A DNA stretch of 35,724 bases from Candidatus Ulvibacter alkanivorans (lineage in GTDB: Bacteria > Bacteroidota > Bacteroidia > Flavobacteriales > Flavobacteriaceae): the NCBI RefSeq assembly GCF_003333325.1, contig NZ_QOLC01000103.1:1-35724 (forward strand), read 5' to 3'. Under the pieces are notes generated by a model. The model made no database searches, was not told the DNA's origin, and saw nothing but the letters and a program-made list of their open reading frames with translations. Made by a program: the position numbers and the translations under genes. Positions 1,026 to 17,948 of the stretch are shown in pieces. The stretch's first letter is position 1, and every line of letters begins with the position of its first letter.

Positions 1026-1787
1026 TTAGCGAATTGTGTTAATAAAGGAGCTAATCCCATCCACTCCTTTTTGGGTTAGCATTTTAATAAAAGCACTTCC
1101 AATAATCGCACCTTTGGCTTTTTTAGTTGCCATTTTAAATGTCGTTGCATCTTTTATTCCGAAGCCAACAATACATGGATTTTTTAAATTCATCTTGGCA
1201 ATTCGATCGAAATACTGTGTTTGTGCATCGCCAAAACCGGTTTTTGACCCTGTAGTACTCGCGCTACTGACCATATAGATAAATCCGTTGGAGGCGTTAT
1301 CGATCTCTCGAATTCTGGCATCCGGAGTTTGTGGGGTGATCAAGAAAATGATATTGAGATCGAACTTTTCGAAGGTCGCCTTATAATGCCTTTGGTATTC
1401 TGCTAAAGGCAGATCCGGTAGTATGAGTCCGTCGATGCCAATTTCCTTACACCGTTTGCAAAAGGCTTCGACGCCGTATTGCAGTACCGGATTAAAGTAG
1501 CCCATAAGCAACAATGGAATGTCTATGGTGTTGCGTATGTTCTTTAATTGATCGAACAAACGGTGGGTGGTCATTCCGTTTTGAAGTGCTTGTGTGGAAC
1601 TCTGTTGAATGGTAGGGCCATCGGCAAGGGGATCACTGAACGGCAGACCAATTTCGACCATATCCACACCGGATTCTTGCAATTTGGTGAGGATAGGTAC
1701 GGTGTCTTCTAGGGACGGATAGCCGGCTGTAAAGTAAATAGACAGCAGTTTTTTGTTTTCTGAAAGTTTTTTTTGAATTCTATTCAT
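1026..1787 (-). CDS. trpA: Tryptophan synthase alpha chain
   Basis: TrpA cleaves indole-3-glycerol phosphate to indole and glyceraldehyde 3-phosphate, and passes indole through a tunnel to TrpB. At 253 residues it is close to the usual 255-268. The catalytic pair is present: Glu45 in VDMVEIGLPFSDP and Asp56 in PLADGP, matching Glu49/Asp60 of the Salmonella enzyme. The phosphate-binding GFGIKDA and GAIIGSAF segments follow near the C-terminus. It is the last trp gene of the operon, but unlike the other trp genes it does not abut its neighbour: a 127-bp gap containing a dispersed structured repeat separates it from trpB. The gene is intact. Confidence 0.97.
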   Translation of the reverse strand: MNRIQKKLSENKKLLSIYFTAGYPSLEDTVPILTKLQESGVDMVEIGLPFSDPLADGPTIQQSSTQALQNGMTTHRLFDQLKNIRNTIDIPLLLMGYFNPVLQYGVEAFCKRCKEIGIDGLILPDLPLAEYQRHYKATFEKFDLNIIFLITPQTPDARIREIDNASNGFIYMVSSASTTGSKTGFGDAQTQYFDRIAKMNLKNPCIVGFGIKDATTFKMATKKAKGAIIGSAFIKMLTQKGVDGISSFINTIR

Positions 1788-1914: not shown

Positions 1915-3099
1915 TTAAAAATTAAAATAATCGATATAGGTGTTTAAGTCTTTGTCGCCGCGACCGCTAAGATTAACGACCACAATATCTTCCGGTTTAA
2001 ATTTTCGATCGTTGAAAATTGCCAGCGCATGACTGGTCTCTATGGCCGGGATGATGCCTTCGAGCTTGCTAAGTTGGAGTCCCGCCTGCATGGCATCGGC
2101 ATCGGTGACCGAGATGAACTCACCACGACCACTCGCGAACAAATGTGCGTGCATGGGTCCAACACCCGGATAATCGAGTCCGGCAGAGATCGAATAGGGC
2201 TCGGTAATTTGCCCATCGTCGGTTTGCATGAGCAAGGTCTTGCTCCCGTGAATGATCCCGATCTTGCCTAGGGCCGAAGTGGCAGCACTCTCACCGCTTT
2301 CAACGCCTTTGCCGGCAGCCTCTACAGCGATGATCCCCACCGAAGGGTCGTCGAGATAATGGTAATAAGCGCCGGCCGCATTGCTTCCGCCACCTACACA
2401 GGCCACAACGTAAGCGGGGTTTTCGACACCTTCTTTTTCCATTAATTGTTTTTTAATTTCTTCGGAAATAATGCTTTGAAAGCGGGCAACCATATCGGGA
2501 TAGGGATGCGGCCCTACCACGCTTCCAATAATATAGTGCGTGTCCACAGGGTTGTTGATCCAATCGCGAATGGCTTCATTGGTTGCATCTTTTAGTGTCT
2601 TGCTGCCACTGGTTGCAGGGATCACCGTAGCTCCCAGCATTTTCATTCGGGCTACATTGGGGGCTTGGCGTTCGATGTCGACAGCACCCATATAGACGAT
2701 GCACTCCATCCCCATAAGGGCGCAAACGGTTGCGGTGGCAACACCGTGTTGTCCGGCACCGGTCTCGGCGATGATCCTTGTTTTGTTGAGTCGTTTGGCA
2801 AGTAAGATCTGCCCGATGGTATTATTAACTTTATGTGCACCCGTATGACAAAGATCTTCGCGTTTTAAATATACTTTGGTGTTGTATTTTTCTGAAAACC
2901 GTTTTGCAAAGTAGAGCGGCGTAGGGCGCCCAACATATTCTCTAAGAAGTGATCTGAACTCTTTTTGAAAGGAGGGTTCACGCATGATCTGCAAATAGGT
3001 TTTACGCAGTTCTTCTACATTGGGATAGAGCATTTCGGGGATGTAGGCGCCGCCAAATTCGCCGTAGTATCCATTTTCGTTTACGTTGTAGGTTGTCAT
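1915..3099 (-). CDS. trpB: Tryptophan synthase beta chain
   Basis: TrpB is the PLP enzyme that condenses indole with serine to give tryptophan. The 394-residue length is normal. The PLP lysine is Lys90 in [13 protein letters not shown]. The glycine-rich phosphate cup [11 protein letters not shown] lies around residue 235, and the C-terminal NLSGRGDKD motif is present. The N-terminal [12 protein letters not shown] stretch is characteristic of TrpB1, which pairs with TrpA. It starts 9 bp after the trpF stop, so it is probably co-transcribed. No unusual residues were noticed. Confidence 0.98.
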
Positions 3100-3108
3100 A
3101 TTTTTTCT

Positions 3109-3762
3109 TTAATGTTCAGCGTATAGTTGGTCGATAAACTGTTTGAGTTTTGGAATTTCTTTGAGTCCGGGTTTACTTTCGAAGCGGCTGTTCACGTCGA
3201 TCGCATAGATTGGAAGATCGGTCTTTAGGATCTGTCGTAACTGCTCGATCCCTTCAAGGCCGATACCACCGCTCAAAATAAATGGTTTTTTCGAGCTGTA
3301 CTCGTTTAAGATTTTCCAATCGAATGCATAACCGTTACCTCCTTTTTCGGGTCCTTTGGTGTCGAACAAAAACTTGTCTACTAGTTCTTCGTAACACGTT
3401 ATGGTTGAAAAATCGAAGCTATCGGCTATACTAAATACTTTCCAGATCTCTATTTTTTTCTTCGGAAGTTGTGCACTGTTCTCTTTTATTACTGCGGAAA
3501 GCTTTTTACAAAAATCTACCGATTCTTCTCCATGCAGTTGCACAACATCCAGATCGAACTGTTGTACTTTATCCAGTATTTTTAACGCTGAGCTATTTAC
3601 GAAAACCCCCACTTTTTTGATCTTTTCGATAGGTTTTGGTGTGTCGAGGTCGTAGTTGCGAGGCGAACCATCAAAGAAGATATACCCCATATAATCGGGC
3701 TGCAGTGAGGCGACCTCTTCGGGGTTTACTTTTATTCCACAGATCTTTAGTTTCGGTTTCAT
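3109..3762 (-). CDS. trpF: Phosphoribosylanthranilate isomerase
   Basis: TrpF performs the Amadori rearrangement of phosphoribosylanthranilate to CdRP. It is a 217-residue TIM barrel. The catalytic cysteine lies in the KICGIK motif near the N-terminus (Cys8), and the general-acid aspartate in the AIDVNSRFESKPG segment near the C-terminus; this segment also binds substrate phosphate. The start overlaps the trpC stop by 4 bp (ATGA), typical of coupled translation. TrpF and TrpC are separate proteins here, unlike the fused enzyme of E. coli. Confidence 0.97.
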   Translation of the reverse strand: MKPKLKICGIKVNPEEVASLQPDYMGYIFFDGSPRNYDLDTPKPIEKIKKVGVFVNSSALKILDKVQQFDLDVVQLHGEESVDFCKKLSAVIKENSAQLPKKKIEIWKVFSIADSFDFSTITCYEELVDKFLFDTKGPEKGGNGYAFDWKILNEYSSKKPFILSGGIGLEGIEQLRQILKTDLPIYAIDVNSRFESKPGLKEIPKLKQFIDQLYAEH

Positions 3763-4544
3763 GCCTTTAATTTTTTGATAAATTCAGCTGCCTCAGTTCC
3801 GGGGTCACTTCCTTTCATAAATGTTTCACCAATCAAAAAGCCTTGATAGCCATAGGTGTGCAGTTCCTTTATGGTGTCGATGGAACTTATTCCGCTTTCC
3901 GAAATCTTTACAAAGTCTGACGGAATTTGTTGTGACAAGTCTTTACTGGTCGCAATAGATACTTCGAATGTTTTGAGGTTTCGATTGTTTACACCCAGCA
4001 TGGTGACAGTTGGCAGTAAAGAGCGCTGTAATTCCTCTTCATTATGAACTTCGAGTAACACTTCTAGATTGAGATTGGTGGCTAGGGTTGAAAAGGCGCG
4101 CAACTCTGTTTCAGTAAGGCAAGCGGCAATTAATAAAATTGCATCGGCGCCATAGGCTTTAGCTTCGTAGATCTGATAAGGATCGATGATAAATTCCTTC
4201 CGAAGTAAAGGAAAGGAAGTTGCGCTGCGGGCTAATAACAGGTCGTCTAATGAACCACCAAAAAAGTTGGTGTCGGTAAGGACCGACATTCCACTTGCGC
4301 CCGCGTTCTCATAGCCACTAGCAACTTCTTGGACTTGCACTTTGTCGTTGATAACCGATCTGCTGGGAGACCGTCGTTTGTGTTCTGCGATGATACCAAA
4401 AGCGTCGTTGCGCAAGGCTTCAGAAAGTGATCTCGTAGGACGGTCGAAAAAAGAGGACTGTTCTAAAAGCGCTTGCGGAAATGCTGCTTTTTTCGCAGCA
4501 ACTTCATGCCGTTTATAGGCTGTTATTTTATCTAAAATGGTCAT
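3759..4544 (-). CDS. trpC: Indole-3-glycerol phosphate synthase
   Basis: TrpC closes the indole ring, converting CdRP to indole-3-glycerol phosphate. The 261 residues give one TIM barrel. Active-site lysines are visible at Lys56 (IIAEHKRRSPS) and Lys116 (LLRKEFIIDPYQI); SVLTD, LGVNNRNL and ISESGI are the other family signatures. It overlaps trpD upstream and trpF downstream by 4 bp each, so trpD-trpC-trpF form a tightly coupled block. Intact. Confidence 0.97.
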   Translation of the reverse strand: MTILDKITAYKRHEVAAKKAAFPQALLEQSSFFDRPTRSLSEALRNDAFGIIAEHKRRSPSRSVINDKVQVQEVASGYENAGASGMSVLTDTNFFGGSLDDLLLARSATSFPLLRKEFIIDPYQIYEAKAYGADAILLIAACLTETELRAFSTLATNLNLEVLLEVHNEEELQRSLLPTVTMLGVNNRNLKTFEVSIATSKDLSQQIPSDFVKISESGISSIDTIKELHTYGYQGFLIGETFMKGSDPGTEAAEFIKKLKA

Positions 4545-5542
4545 TGTGCTGCTTTACTGAGTTGTTGTAGTTTTTCTAAACTTTTTAAGGCTTGTCCAGA
4601 TGCTAAGGATAGTTGCGCCTTTTTAAATCCGTCCTCCATAGTGATCTGTTGGGCTACGGCTATCGCTAATCCGGCGTTCGCACATACTACGTTGTTCTGT
4701 GCTTCCGAACCTTTGCCTTTTAATATTTTCTGAAAGATCTCTGCCGACTCGGGTACTGTGTCACCGCCATGGATCTCTTGCGGTTCTATAGTGCGTAGTC
4801 CCAAATCTTTTGGTTGGAACATGTGTTCTGAAGCTCTTGAAATAATTTTTACAGGACCGGTCAATGAGATCTCATCGTAGCCGTCGATGGCATGAAGCAC
4901 GGCATAATTTCGTTTGCTTTTTTGGTATAAATAGCCGTACATACGTGCCAACTCCAGATCGAAAACGCCCACCAATTGATTTTTTGGGAATGCCGGATTC
5001 ACCATGGGGCCGAGCATGTTGAAAAAAGTCTTTACGCCCAATGAACGACGAATAGGAGCTACGTTCTTCATTGCCGGGTGAAACAATGGGGCATGCAACA
5101 CACAGATACCTGCTTCATCCAAACATTGTTTAAGGAAATCTTCATTGTTACTAAAATGAATGCCGAGTTGTTCCATCACATTACTACTTCCACTTACCGA
5201 AGAAACACCATAGTTTCCATGTTTGGTTACCATAACACCGGCTCCGGCAGTTACAAAAGAAGCGAGTGTAGAAATATTGAATGTGTTCTTACCATCCCCG
5301 CCGGTTCCACACAGATCGATGGTGTTGTATTCGGAGACATCGATCGAAAGGCACAGATCAAGCAAGGCATCTCGAAAGCCTTCTAGTTCTTCCAAACCAA
5401 CGTTTCGCATCATGTAGACCGTTAAGAATGCTGCGATCTCACTTTCGTTATATCGACCCTCACTAATAGCGATCAACACATCTCGCGCCTCTTTGCTGGA
5501 GAGTTTTTCGTGATTTATTAATCTATTTAAAATTTGTTTCAT
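4541..5542 (-). CDS. trpD: Anthranilate phosphoribosyltransferase
   Basis: TrpD transfers phosphoribose from PRPP to anthranilate. The 333 residues match the stand-alone form, with no fused TrpG domain. The PRPP loop DLCGTGGDGKNTFNIST is at about 76-92, and the KHGNYGVSS anthranilate/metal motif is at 107 onward. The DE pair appears in the YDEISLTGP segment. It starts 17 bp after the trpG stop and overlaps trpC. Confidence 0.97.
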   Translation of the reverse strand: MKQILNRLINHEKLSSKEARDVLIAISEGRYNESEIAAFLTVYMMRNVGLEELEGFRDALLDLCLSIDVSEYNTIDLCGTGGDGKNTFNISTLASFVTAGAGVMVTKHGNYGVSSVSGSSNVMEQLGIHFSNNEDFLKQCLDEAGICVLHAPLFHPAMKNVAPIRRSLGVKTFFNMLGPMVNPAFPKNQLVGVFDLELARMYGYLYQKSKRNYAVLHAIDGYDEISLTGPVKIISRASEHMFQPKDLGLRTIEPQEIHGGDTVPESAEIFQKILKGKGSEAQNNVVCANAGLAIAVAQQITMEDGFKKAQLSLASGQALKSLEKLQQLSKAAQ

Positions 5543-5559: not shown

Positions 5560-6129
5560 TTAGTTGCTTTCTACCCAGTTCTTAATAATTTGTTTTCCCT
5601 TGGGAGTGAGTACACTTTCCGGGTGAAATTGCACTCCCTTAACATCATAGAGTTTGTGTCTAAGCGACATGATCTGTCCGTTCTCATCAATAGATGTAAC
5701 CTCTAATACTTCCGGTAGGTCTTCTTTGTTCACCACCCAAGAATGGTATCTGCCTATCTCAATTTCATCGTCCAATCCTTTAAAGAGTGATTCGTCCTTC
5801 GAAAGAATGGTCGCTTTGGTCGCTACGCCGTGAAACACTTCCTTTAGATTAATAATACTTCCCCCAAAGACTTCTCCAATGGCCTGTTGCCCTAAACAAA
5901 CACCTAAAATTGGTTTTGAAGTGGCATAGGTTTCTATTACTTTTTTTAGCAGTCCGGCTTCATCTGGGATCCCGGGTCCGGGAGACAAAAGGATTTTGTC
6001 ATAAGCTTCCACTTCCTCTATGGTAAAACGGTCGTTCCTTTTTACGGTTACCTCACAATCCAGCTCTTCCAAGTAGTGCACAAGATTGTACACAAAACTG
6101 TCGTAGTTGTCTATTACTAATATTTTCAT
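5560..6129 (-). CDS. trpG: Anthranilate synthase component II, glutamine amidotransferase
   Basis: TrpG supplies ammonia from glutamine to TrpE. It is a class I amidotransferase of 189 residues. The triad is complete: Cys78 in LGVCLGQQAIGE, and His169 and Glu171 in VQFHPESVLTP. The oxyanion-loop SPGPGIPDEAG is at about residue 49. It lies 2 bp after the trpE stop. A role as PabA in folate synthesis cannot be excluded, since some bacteria share one amidotransferase. Confidence 0.95.
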   Translation of the reverse strand: MKILVIDNYDSFVYNLVHYLEELDCEVTVKRNDRFTIEEVEAYDKILLSPGPGIPDEAGLLKKVIETYATSKPILGVCLGQQAIGEVFGGSIINLKEVFHGVATKATILSKDESLFKGLDDEIEIGRYHSWVVNKEDLPEVLEVTSIDENGQIMSLRHKLYDVKGVQFHPESVLTPKGKQIIKNWVESN

Positions 6130-6131
6130 TC

Positions 6132-7529
6132 CTACATTTTTTCTGCTAGTTCGAGGGCTTTGGTAAGCGCTCCCAACTTATTATACACTTCTTGTAATTC
6201 GTTTTCTTCATCACTTTCAGAAACCACACCGGCCCCAGCTTGATAATGAAGGGTATGGTCCTTACTCACAAAAGATCGAATAATGATGGCATGATTGAAG
6301 TTGCCGTTAAAATCCATAAAACCAATAGCACCTCCATAAAATTCTCTGGAGATATTTTCATACTTCTCTAGAAGTTGCATTGCTTTGTGTTTAGGCGCTC
6401 CACTCAAGGTGCCGGCGGGGAAGGTGTCTGCCACGATCTGCATGGTCGCCGTGTCTGCATGTTTTGTAGCGGTTACCTTGCTTACTAGATGGATGACATG
6501 TGAAAAGAACTGAACTTCTCTATAGGTTTCCACTTGCACGTCACGCCCGTGGCGGCTTAGGTCATTTCGCGCCAGATCCACCAGCATCACATGTTCACTG
6601 TTTTCTTTTGTATCGGTTGCCAATTGTTTTGCCAATTGAGCATCGGCCTCATCGTTTCCGGTCCTTTTAAAGGTACCCGCAATGGGATGTATCTCTGCAC
6701 GGTCTCCATTTACTACCAATTGTGCTTCCGGGGAACTTCCAAAGATCTTAAAGTTGCTGTAATCGAAATAGAACAAATAAGGCGACGGATTGATACTTCT
6801 TAGTGCACGATAGACATTGAACTCGTCTCCGGTAAATTCTTGTGAAAATCGTTTGCTTGGTACGATTTGAAACACATCGCCACGGTTACAGTGTTCCTTG
6901 CATTTAGCAACCAATGCTTTAAAATCGGAGTCGGTTATGTTGGTTTCAGCATCGCCCTTGGTTTGAAAAGCGTATTCCGAAAAGTTCTTAGAACGAAGTA
7001 ATTGTTCTATGTACGGGATGTTGTTCTCGCCGTCGTAGGTGTGACAAAATAGATACGCCTCATTATTAAAGTGATTAATGGCGATAATATTTTGATACAC
7101 GGCATAGTATACATCGGGAATGCCGAGACTTCCTTCTTTTTTCTGAAGTGAGATCGATTCGTAATAACGCACCGCATCGTAAGCCATATAACCAAAAAGG
7201 CCATTATTAATAAATTTTACATTGGCTTCTTCCGAAGAAAACGAACCTGCGAATTTTTCTAAAATGGTTGGTACGTGAATGGCTTCGGAAAGGTCGGTTT
7301 GCAAGGTTTTGCCATCCGGAAATTTTTCGACGATCTGTTCGTTTTCAATTTTGATAGAAGCAATTGGATTGCAACAAATATAACTGAAGGTGTTGTCGTT
7401 AGCACGGTAATCACTGCTCTCCAGCAACAAACTATTCGGGAATTTATCGCGAAGCCGTAAATAGACCGAAACCGGCGTAAGGGTATCGGCCAGTAGTTTT
7501 TTAGAATATGTCTTTAAGTTGTATTTCAT
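6132..7529 (-). CDS. trpE: Anthranilate synthase component I
   Basis: TrpE makes anthranilate from chorismate using ammonia from TrpG. Visible family motifs are the feedback-site LLESSDY near the N-terminus, FQIVPSKRF, GSSPEAQLV, HPIAGTFKR, VDLARNDLSRHG, FPAGTLSGAPKHKAM and GAGVVSESDEENE. The start chosen is the ATG at 7529 (MKYNLKTYSK, 465 residues). A longer frame from a TTG at 7568 would put the first 13 codons on the terminator hairpin and T-run of the attenuator, so it is rejected. The LLES serine suggests allosteric inhibition by tryptophan, in addition to the transcriptional control upstream. First gene of the operon trpE-G-D-C-F-B-A. Confidence 0.97.
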   Translation of the reverse strand: MKYNLKTYSKKLLADTLTPVSVYLRLRDKFPNSLLLESSDYRANDNTFSYICCNPIASIKIENEQIVEKFPDGKTLQTDLSEAIHVPTILEKFAGSFSSEEANVKFINNGLFGYMAYDAVRYYESISLQKKEGSLGIPDVYYAVYQNIIAINHFNNEAYLFCHTYDGENNIPYIEQLLRSKNFSEYAFQTKGDAETNITDSDFKALVAKCKEHCNRGDVFQIVPSKRFSQEFTGDEFNVYRALRSINPSPYLFYFDYSNFKIFGSSPEAQLVVNGDRAEIHPIAGTFKRTGNDEADAQLAKQLATDTKENSEHVMLVDLARNDLSRHGRDVQVETYREVQFFSHVIHLVSKVTATKHADTATMQIVADTFPAGTLSGAPKHKAMQLLEKYENISREFYGGAIGFMDFNGNFNHAIIIRSFVSKDHTLHYQAGAGVVSESDEENELQEVYNKLGALTKALELAEKM

Positions 7530-7541
7530 AAAATAATAATC

Positions 7542-7620
7542 AAAAAAAAAGCTTGTCGTGAAAGACAAGCCTTTGTATAGATAATACCATAGTGCTTTAA
7601 CTCACGACGTTCGACGTAAG
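7542..7620 (-). promoter_or_regulatory. trp attenuator (protector, antiterminator, terminator)
   Basis: Three mutually exclusive pairings are visible on the minus strand. Region 1 CTTACG (7620-7615) pairs with CGTGAG (7606-7601). Region 2 GTCGTGA (7608-7602) can instead pair perfectly with TCACGAC (7561-7555). The terminator is GCTTGTC (7570-7564) with GACAAGC (7557-7551), a 6-base loop and then nine Ts (7550-7542). Region 2 would take up one arm and part of the loop of the terminator. A ribosome stalled on the Trp codons at 7634-7626 would cover region 1, free region 2 and allow read-through into trpE. Confidence 0.88.
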
Positions 7621-7658
7621 GAGATCCACCACCATGTATGTGTATGTGTTGTTTTCAA
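7602..7658 (-). CDS. trpL: trp operon leader peptide with three tandem Trp codons
   Basis: Eighteen codons from a TTG start give M-KTTHTHTWWWISLRRTS. Three consecutive TGG codons at 7634-7626 are followed by a stop (7604-7602) that lies inside the region 1:2 hairpin of the attenuator. TTG is an inferred start: no in-frame ATG exists between the promoter and the Trp codons, and several other genes in this window begin with TTG. The predicted transcript begins only a few bases before the TTG, so translation would be nearly leaderless. The layout (Trp run, stop in hairpin 1:2, terminator before trpE) is that of classical trp attenuation. Confidence 0.8.
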   Translation of the reverse strand: MKTTHTHTWWWISLRRTS

Positions 7659-7666
7659 TTTGGTTT

Positions 7667-7696
7667 CAAATATAGGTATTGTGTTGAAAAAGTCAA
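7667..7696 (-). promoter_or_regulatory. trp operon promoter
   Basis: On the minus strand TTG (7696-7694), a 19-base spacer and TATATTTG (7674-7667) match the Bacteroidota consensus TTG-N17-23-TAnnTTTG exactly. Initiation is expected near 7660, immediately before the leader peptide. Confidence 0.85.
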
Positions 7697-17382: not shown

Positions 17383-17558
17383 CCGGGGAGGTTACTTGCA
17401 TGATCTCCATTGGTTCTGGTCCTGTAAATACAAACCCCACATCGCCGCAGCGATGCGGTCTTGTGTTTCATTCCCTTTTCTGAAACAAGTTTCATGCAGG
17501 TCATAAAACACAAAACCCCGCAACTTTCGTTGCAGGGCTTGTGCATAATCGTGGAGCC
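17365..17558. repeat. 194-bp tandem duplication, right unit abutting tmRNA
   Basis: Second unit, about 97% identical to the left one. Its right end (17552-17558) is the last 7 bases of the tmRNA gene, so the duplication boundary lies inside the tmRNA acceptor stem. Confidence 0.9.
17505..17548 (-). terminator. tmRNA terminator hairpin
   Basis: On the minus strand CCCTGCAAC-GAAA-GTTGCGGGG followed by TTTTGTGTTTT forms a strong hairpin with a T-rich tail directly downstream of the tmRNA. The plus-strand copy has A-rich flanks, so it may also act in the other direction. A second copy lies in the left 194-bp unit. Confidence 0.8.
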
Positions 17559-17948
17559 GGGGAGATTCGAACTCCCGTCCAAACGCGCAACCATATTACT
17601 TTCTACATGTTTAGTTTTCATTTCGATTTTCGTGGGCTTGCCGGTCGAAAACTACCAACGCACCCCTTATCGCTACTTAAGTTTCTTAGGTACATCAGCG
17701 CACTGTACCCAATAGGTCTACTTTTACGAAGCCACTAAACCGATTGCCGTAAACCAAGGCCTTCGAGTGACTTCCTGCATGCCCGTCTTACGGGCCGAGG
17801 CATATCCTACTATAATTCAGATTATGCTGCTAGGGCGTAGTTATTCTCGCCGTTTAAAAAAGTGTGAAATATGAGATTTACGAGCTGTATTCCGGCGCTC
17901 GACATGCTTATAATACAATTAGACCCGCTGTCAAAACCAGTCGGCCCC
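17552..17948 (-). ncRNA. ssrA: tmRNA (transfer-messenger RNA)
   Basis: tmRNA rescues ribosomes stalled on mRNAs without a stop codon, together with SmpB. The 5' end GGGGCCGACTGGTTTTGACAG and the 3' end, with a GGGAGTTCGAATCTCCC T-arm, pair as a 7-bp acceptor stem (GGGGCCG with CGGCTCC, one G-U). The tag frame is at 17851-17822: GGC GAG AAT AAC TAC GCC CTA GCA GCA TAA, giving GENNYALAA after the tRNA-borne alanine. The 397-base length is normal. CCA is not encoded (ACGA follows), so it must be added after transcription. A CCCTGC/GCAGGG hairpin lies just upstream of the 5' end. Confidence 0.97.

Follow-up and report, generated by a model that had tools for sequence, protein, structure and literature searches.

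In the trp attenuator of E. coli, tandem Trp codons in a leader peptide are combined with a protector stem, an antiterminator formed on the 5' arm of the terminator, and the terminator itself. The Rfam family RF01692, Bacteroid-trp, features a short ORF that contains two or more Trp codons. Bacteroid-trp was listed as a Bacteroidetes motif by Weinberg et al. 2010 (Table 1; PMC2864571), so trp attenuation as seen here is not new to Bacteroidota, and an earlier paper mentions an RF01692-type attenuator before the trp operon of F. psychrophilum (PMC6414381). Because the RF01692 model ends in the 5' arm of the terminator, it models neither terminator nor antiterminator.

In other phyla, transcript data have put the start of Trp leader peptides at the RNA's 5' end: in Sinorhizobium meliloti this is the leaderless trpL (PMC7298713), and in Streptomyces lividans it is TrpL1, MFAHSTRNWWW, which has eight residues before WWW as in the present leader (PMC8079986). 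With these we compared the peptide start alone; they lower the surprise of a near-leaderless design. Closer at hand, in the same family as our locus, leader-peptide attenuation has been suspected before amino-acid operons of F. psychrophilum, in a text whose cited part gives neither a leader start position nor a leaderless design (PMC9723704). A literature search, to which supplements and most subscription papers were external, found no paper in which Bacteroidota attenuators are described with leaderless or near-leaderless starts. The attenuator described below is of a known kind, Bacteroid-trp, and typical of its family. What would be new, all of it from computation, is a family-wide near-5' start, the geometry of the antiterminator and a natural series of start codons.

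The leader and operon in the window

The window, the whole 35,724-nt stretch of DNA that was analysed, carries a continuous run of the seven trp genes on the minus strand, downstream of the leader, in the order trpE, G, D, C, F, B, A:

6132..7529, minus strand: trpE, 465 aa, ATG start; best model TIGR00564, 419 bits, below its cut-off of 517.7
5560..6129, minus strand: trpG (TIGR00566)
4541..5542, minus strand: trpD (TIGR01245)
3759..4544, minus strand: trpC (NF001377)
3109..3762, minus strand: trpF; best model NF002295, 131 bits, below its cut-off of 216
1915..3099, minus strand: trpB (TIGR00263)
1026..1787, minus strand: trpA (TIGR00262)

A sequence-only reading of this DNA had placed an attenuator before the operon, and that assignment held: its claimed elements were all present on the minus strand at 7674-7542, upstream of trpE, and the leader scored above the RF01692 gathering cut-off, at 50.4 bits against 49, a margin of only 1.4 bits that we counted against the assignment. 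The window shares with RF01692 a match to the sequence and structure model, the position before trp genes, a short ORF with tandem Trp codons (WWW) and a terminator next to it; it differs in having TTG where the consensus has AUG, and its own alignment to the model contains several non-standard pairs around the outer helix P0. When eight genomes with clear leaders were searched with RF01692, matches were found in four, three of them over the cut-off. The misses may belong to the search and not to the model, because the search scores only a first-look selection. A sub-threshold match of the window to the Rfam family '6A' (E 0.25) was taken as chance.

The leader fold had a z of -3.8, and none of 200 shuffles was equally stable. 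Terminator-like sites in the window numbered two, one per strand, against 0.2 expected, and promoter-like sites three against 1.2. A tmRNA gene lies elsewhere in the window at 17549-17948 on the minus strand (RF00023, 143 bits).

The elements that start the leader are as follows:

7667..7674, minus strand: -7 promoter box TATATTTG, sigma-A type TAHHTTTG; relatives also have a box within 30 nt of the start
7661..7662, minus strand: predicted transcription start, 4-5 nt after the box, with spacing from PMC6847099 and PMC9723704
7602..7658, minus strand: leader ORF with TTG start at 7658-7656, KTTHTHTWWWISLRRTS over 17 further codons and stop TGA at 7604-7602; ATG stands here in most relatives
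7626..7634, minus strand: three tandem TGG, the control codons, from the sequence and relatives

The 18-codon TTG frame with three consecutive TGG codons was thus found as described. The consensus promoter proposed with it needed correction, as the element relevant to the phylum is the -7 box TATATTTG at 7674-7667 and not a sigma-70-like TTGACT/TATATT pair. The TTG lies 8 nt from this box. A box-to-start spacing of 4 or 5 nt, as reported for F. johnsoniae (PMC6847099), puts the transcription start at 7662 or 7661 and the predicted 5' leader at 3-4 nt, inside the 2-5 bases given earlier. The missing Shine-Dalgarno sequence, which had been called unusual, is normal for the phylum (PMC6847099). 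An out-of-frame ATG at 7635-7633, whose frame (7635-7600, minus strand, MVVDLLTSNVVS) overlaps the Trp codons, was rejected as the real leader start: inspection by eye showed an ATG there in just 7 of 66 other leaders.

We weighed several readings of the region. At a probability of about three in four, we read it as a ribosome-mediated attenuator of the Bacteroid-trp family that would control trpEGDCFBA and be read from a near-5' TTG leader.

Leader start position among relatives

A TrpE search gave the best 80 of at least 576 relatives, so that the relative set consists of the nearest ones. A leader was found upstream of trpE in 78 of the 80 loci (L019 and L023 end at contig ends), within 500 nt in 75. 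In the remaining three (L041, L060, L068) it lay about 510-540 nt upstream, behind an ORF of 98-99 codons between the trp terminator and trpE (leader at about 1460-1500, trpE at 2001); by its look, we take this ORF to be a GIY-YIG type endonuclease. Loci from an RF01692 search of 296 genomes of the phylum, which found the motif in 30 and over the cut-off in 28, were added. After six duplicates were dropped and the three displaced leaders excluded, the working set held 102 leaders besides the window, near relatives included.

An in-frame ATG stood at most 30 nt from the first TGG in 100 of the 102 leaders, at 24 nt (8 codons) in 94, 21 nt in five and 27 nt in one. Two Leeuwenhoekiella species (L034 and L037) have a 30-codon in-frame insertion in the leader peptide, with inverted repeats by eye, and a 32-nt stretch similar to it occurs once more in genome G1020. 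Both leaders have a near-5' ATG, at 9 nt from the box, that is still in frame with WWW.

Promoter boxes were close to these starts. A TAnnTTT[GA] box lay 4-22 nt from the ATG (median 10) in 99 of the 100 leaders with an ATG, and a strict TAnnTTTG box lay 3-20 nt away in 93. Promoter boxes of F. psychrophilum are reported to span -12 to -5 (PMC9723704), and 4-5 nt separate box and start site in F. johnsoniae (PMC6847099); on these grounds we took the predicted UTR as the box distance minus 4. By this spacing the relatives' UTRs had a predicted median of 6 nt, with 5 nt or less in 49 of 99 and under 10 nt in 68. The lengths were graded, many being predicted at 0-4 nt and others at 12-15 within a full range of 0-18 nt, so that 'leaderless' suits part of the family and 'very short leader' fits the rest.

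As a control we took the remaining ORFs of loci L001-L080 that are 150 aa or longer, 392 in all. In 32 of these a strict box stood no more than 100 nt away, at a median distance of 26 nt, with 13 at 3-20 nt and two at 8 nt or less. The resulting UTR of about 22 nt agrees with the published F. psychrophilum median of 24 nt, in a transcriptome with 5.5% leaderless mRNAs (PMC9723704); in F. johnsoniae, leaders exceed 10 nt in 87% of predicted transcripts (PMC6847099). These distances bear on the idea of a true promoter located farther upstream, which would give the TTG an ordinary 5' UTR. One relative, L062, speaks for it, its nearest box being 40 nt from the ATG. The box at 4-22 nt in 99 of 100 relatives and the wider spacing of the control ORFs, only 2 of 32 at 8 nt or less, argue against an ordinary leadered peptide, and we consider it improbable.

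The pattern of a box, 3-20 nt, ATG, 21 nt and TGGTGGTGG occurred in 258 of 397 Flavobacteriaceae genomes (the family of G008, a Flavobacteriaceae MAG that carries L012), against 12 by count for a reversed-pattern control. Box spacing thus supports the near-5' start as a probable feature of much of the family, nearly always with ATG. The near-leaderless leader peptide of the sequence-only reading is backed by the same spacing; it is not specific to the window.

Alternative pairings and a proposed mechanism

The pairing elements follow the leader start on the same strand:

7630..7636, minus strand: P0 5' strand CATGGTG, overlapping the Trp codons (folds and swap test)
7588..7594, minus strand: P0 3' strand CACTATG (folds and swap test)
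7615..7620, minus strand: P1 5' strand CTTACG, protector, region 1 (folds and swap test)
7601..7606, minus strand: P1 3' strand CGTGAG, within region 2 (folds and swap test)
7602..7608, minus strand: region 2, GTCGTGA, antiterminator 5' strand, overlapping the leader stop codon (swap test; 66 of 67 leaders fold so)
7575..7587, minus strand: small spacer hairpin GTAT/ATAC (folds; without covariation support)
7547..7574, minus strand: intrinsic terminator hairpin AAAGGCTTGTC-TTTCAC-GACAAGCTTTT (swap test)
7570-7564/7557-7551, minus strand: terminator stem core GCTTGTC/GACAAGC (sequence)
7555..7561, minus strand: TCACGAC, antiterminator 3' strand, formed by the terminator loop and the first 3 nt of its 3' arm (pair table)
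7542..7550, minus strand: terminator T9 tract (sequence)

The protector CTTACG/CGTGAG, the 7-bp pairing GTCGTGA/TCACGAC and the GCTTGTC/GACAAGC terminator with T9 were all where they had been reported. The T run does not directly precede the trpE ATG, as had been stated: 12 nt (7541-7530) separate it from the ATG at 7529.

Conservation was assessed in 67 leaders under 90% identity, window included and L034 and L037 left out, by a test in which pairing strands were swapped among leaders 2000 times. The terminator gave z -12.6, P0 z -8.1 (0/2000), P1 z -5.2 (0/2000) and the antiterminator z -3.1 (5/2000); the P0 result supports a long-range pairing around the Trp codons, and the antiterminator was the weakest of the four helices, which we counted against it. 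Three wrongly paired controls gave z +2.1, +1.9 and -1.8. The one leaning the same way as the antiterminator paired the P1 strand with the terminator (z -1.8, 77/2000).

In the pair table of the antiterminator, six positions were paired in 63-67 of the 67 leaders and the outermost in 36. Compensatory changes replaced GC by AT in four leaders, some of them with Dokdonia-type TTAC loops, and AT by TA in L074 and L077; the terminator of L074 was missed by the hairpin finder and is plain by eye. When the RNA was cut after ACGAC, 66 of the 67 leaders folded with region 2 on the terminator loop and 3' arm. An antiterminator formed with the terminator 5' arm, in the E. coli manner, gave z -1.1 (268/2000) in the same 67 leaders. 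By eye, region 2 of the divergent leader L111, CAAAGTCTT, matches the terminator 5' arm, which is the E. coli arrangement.

Pair covariation supports P0, P1, the antiterminator and the terminator. The comparison of relatives' trpE upstream regions, which had been suggested as a check, thus came out in favor of the attenuator: W run, start, frame and pairings are kept, with compensatory changes in the antiterminator. Two further elements were rejected. The spacer hairpin was not conserved as a part of the switch (swap z -0.8, 431/2000; mean stability z -0.87, with 28 of 67 under -1), and a further antiterminator helix, which in the window's fold joins the bases that follow region 2 to the terminator 5' arm, had a swap z of +1.3.

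The antiterminator pairing with the terminator loop and 3' arm was not described in the literature searched, and it adds to RF01692 an element lacking in the Rfam model. The window resembles the E. coli attenuator in its tandem Trp codons and its protector (1:2), antiterminator and terminator hairpins. It differs in an antiterminator built on the loop and 3' arm instead of the 5' arm, in a stop codon inside region 2, in the extra outer helix P0, in the lack of a Shine-Dalgarno sequence and in the near-leaderless start. The claim that the locus follows the logic of trp attenuation in Proteobacteria therefore stands in part: attenuation by a ribosome translating a WWW peptide explains the locus best, in a geometry that does not copy E. 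coli and in a phylum where such attenuation was already known (RF01692).

Under the attenuator reading, transcription would start 3-4 nt before the TTG. By default P0 would lock the Trp codons and P1 region 2, so that the terminator forms and the operon is off. A ribosome would load at the 5' end, probably initiate at TTG, where relatives mostly have ATG, and melt P0. When charged tRNA-Trp is scarce, it would stall on WWW and cover region 1, releasing GTCGTGA. The freed strand could then pair with TCACGAC of the emerging terminator and mask the site of hairpin nucleation, letting polymerase continue into trpE. With plentiful Trp, the ribosome would reach the stop codon inside region 2 and cover that region, and the terminator would form.

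We infer that region 2 acts by preventing terminator nucleation. Across the 67 leaders the antiterminator state was weaker than the terminator state by a median of 3.9 kcal/mol, which counts against the switch. In equilibrium folding, which is not co-transcriptional, the two states of the window were equal with the RNA free from 7613 (-18.3 and -18.2 kcal/mol); with the RNA free from 7589, the terminator was the sole structure besides the small spacer hairpin.

TTG, GTG and ATG starts

The GTG/TTG form of the box-leader pattern occurred at 24 places in 23 of the 397 genomes. The reversed control gave 18 genomes by count, and because the count alone is near chance, the places were judged singly by sequence. 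Ten were leaders (six GTG, four TTG), in one (L114) the next codon was an in-frame ATG, and the remaining 13 seemed unrelated. By tblastn, nine of the ten leaders precede trpE, and L142 ends at a contig end; L119 is without the usual region 2 motif by eye. At order level, 395 further genomes gave eight matches, no more than the control, with one plausible leader, L138 (GTG), whose trpE-like stretch begins about 1.3 kb downstream.

TTG leaders besides the window were L121, L122, L142 and L143. The sequence-only reading had called the TTG start unusual, and it is rare, ATG being at the same spot in 94 of 100 leaders; its recurrence in four relatives suggests a rare natural start in the family. 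The same recurrence bears on whether the window's TTG is a base-call or assembly error for a true ATG. ATG is the family rule, as an error would have it, but four other genomes have TTG in this position, and we consider an error quite unlikely.

Box-to-start distances were 4, 5, 5, 5, 5, 5 and 19 nt for GTG, 17, 17, 17 and 18 nt for TTG, and 8 nt for the window. The predicted UTR was 0-1 nt in six of seven GTG leaders and 13-14 nt in all four TTG leaders. A box distance of 6 nt or less was seen in 6 of 7 GTG vs 18 of 99 ATG leaders (Fisher p 0.0005, with kinship ignored, L131 and L132 looking close, and the sets drawn differently). The window, as the only TTG leader with a predicted UTR under 13 nt, breaks this pattern, or its TTG is weak.

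Leaderless translation in mycobacteria is reported to accept AUG or GUG (PMC9094748), and at leaderless ends in E. coli AUG is far more efficient than GUG, UUG or CUG (PMC9031893); these reports fit the pattern in part. The E. coli finding and the 13-14 nt predicted for all four other TTG leaders count against the attenuator reading. A rival reading is a decayed sensor, in which a change from ATG to TTG, or a T insertion, crippled initiation, so that the leader would hardly be translated and the operon would be mostly terminated and untuned to tryptophan. The ATG at -24 in 94 of 100 relatives, the window's place as sole TTG leader with so short a predicted UTR and the default formation of P0 and P1 are all consistent with decay. 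Against it, the other parts are intact, including three TGG, frame and stop, TTG recurs in four other leaders, and the window has the highest density of CA after its start (6 CA in 21 nt, a top rank that it shares with L004 among 101), CA richness there being reported to raise leaderless translation (PMC9031893). We regard decay as unlikely and prefer the working attenuator. That the CA-rich start compensates for a weak TTG is only a post-hoc hint; as a general compensation for short UTRs the idea was rejected, since CA density showed no correlation with distance (Spearman 0.08, p 0.42, n=99).

The trp leaders bear on how ribosomes find starts in a phylum that lacks Shine-Dalgarno sequences: they offer homologous start sites with read-through as output and natural variation in start codon (ATG, GTG, TTG) and predicted UTR (0-18 nt), which makes start-codon choice against 5' distance directly testable. 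Tentatively, the start codon may track UTR length within this one homologous RNA family, with GUG at the very 5' end and UUG only with a leader, as if bacteria without Shine-Dalgarno sequences had two modes of initiation. In this speculative picture, amino-acid attenuators of Flavobacteriaceae would rest on leaderless or near-leaderless peptides, the window's TTG (3-4 nt, CA-rich) would be a natural intermediate, and the antiterminator would mask the terminator's nucleation site.

Leaders with 3-5 consecutive His codons were also seen before hisG in ten genomes (L144-L153), and in all ten the ATG stands exactly six codons ahead of the His run. A TAnnTTT[GA] box lay 7-25 nt before the ATG in seven, three being without a box in that range; the predicted UTR was 3-21 nt, and 6 nt or less in five. 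At these 10 loci the putative His leaders look similar to the trp leaders.
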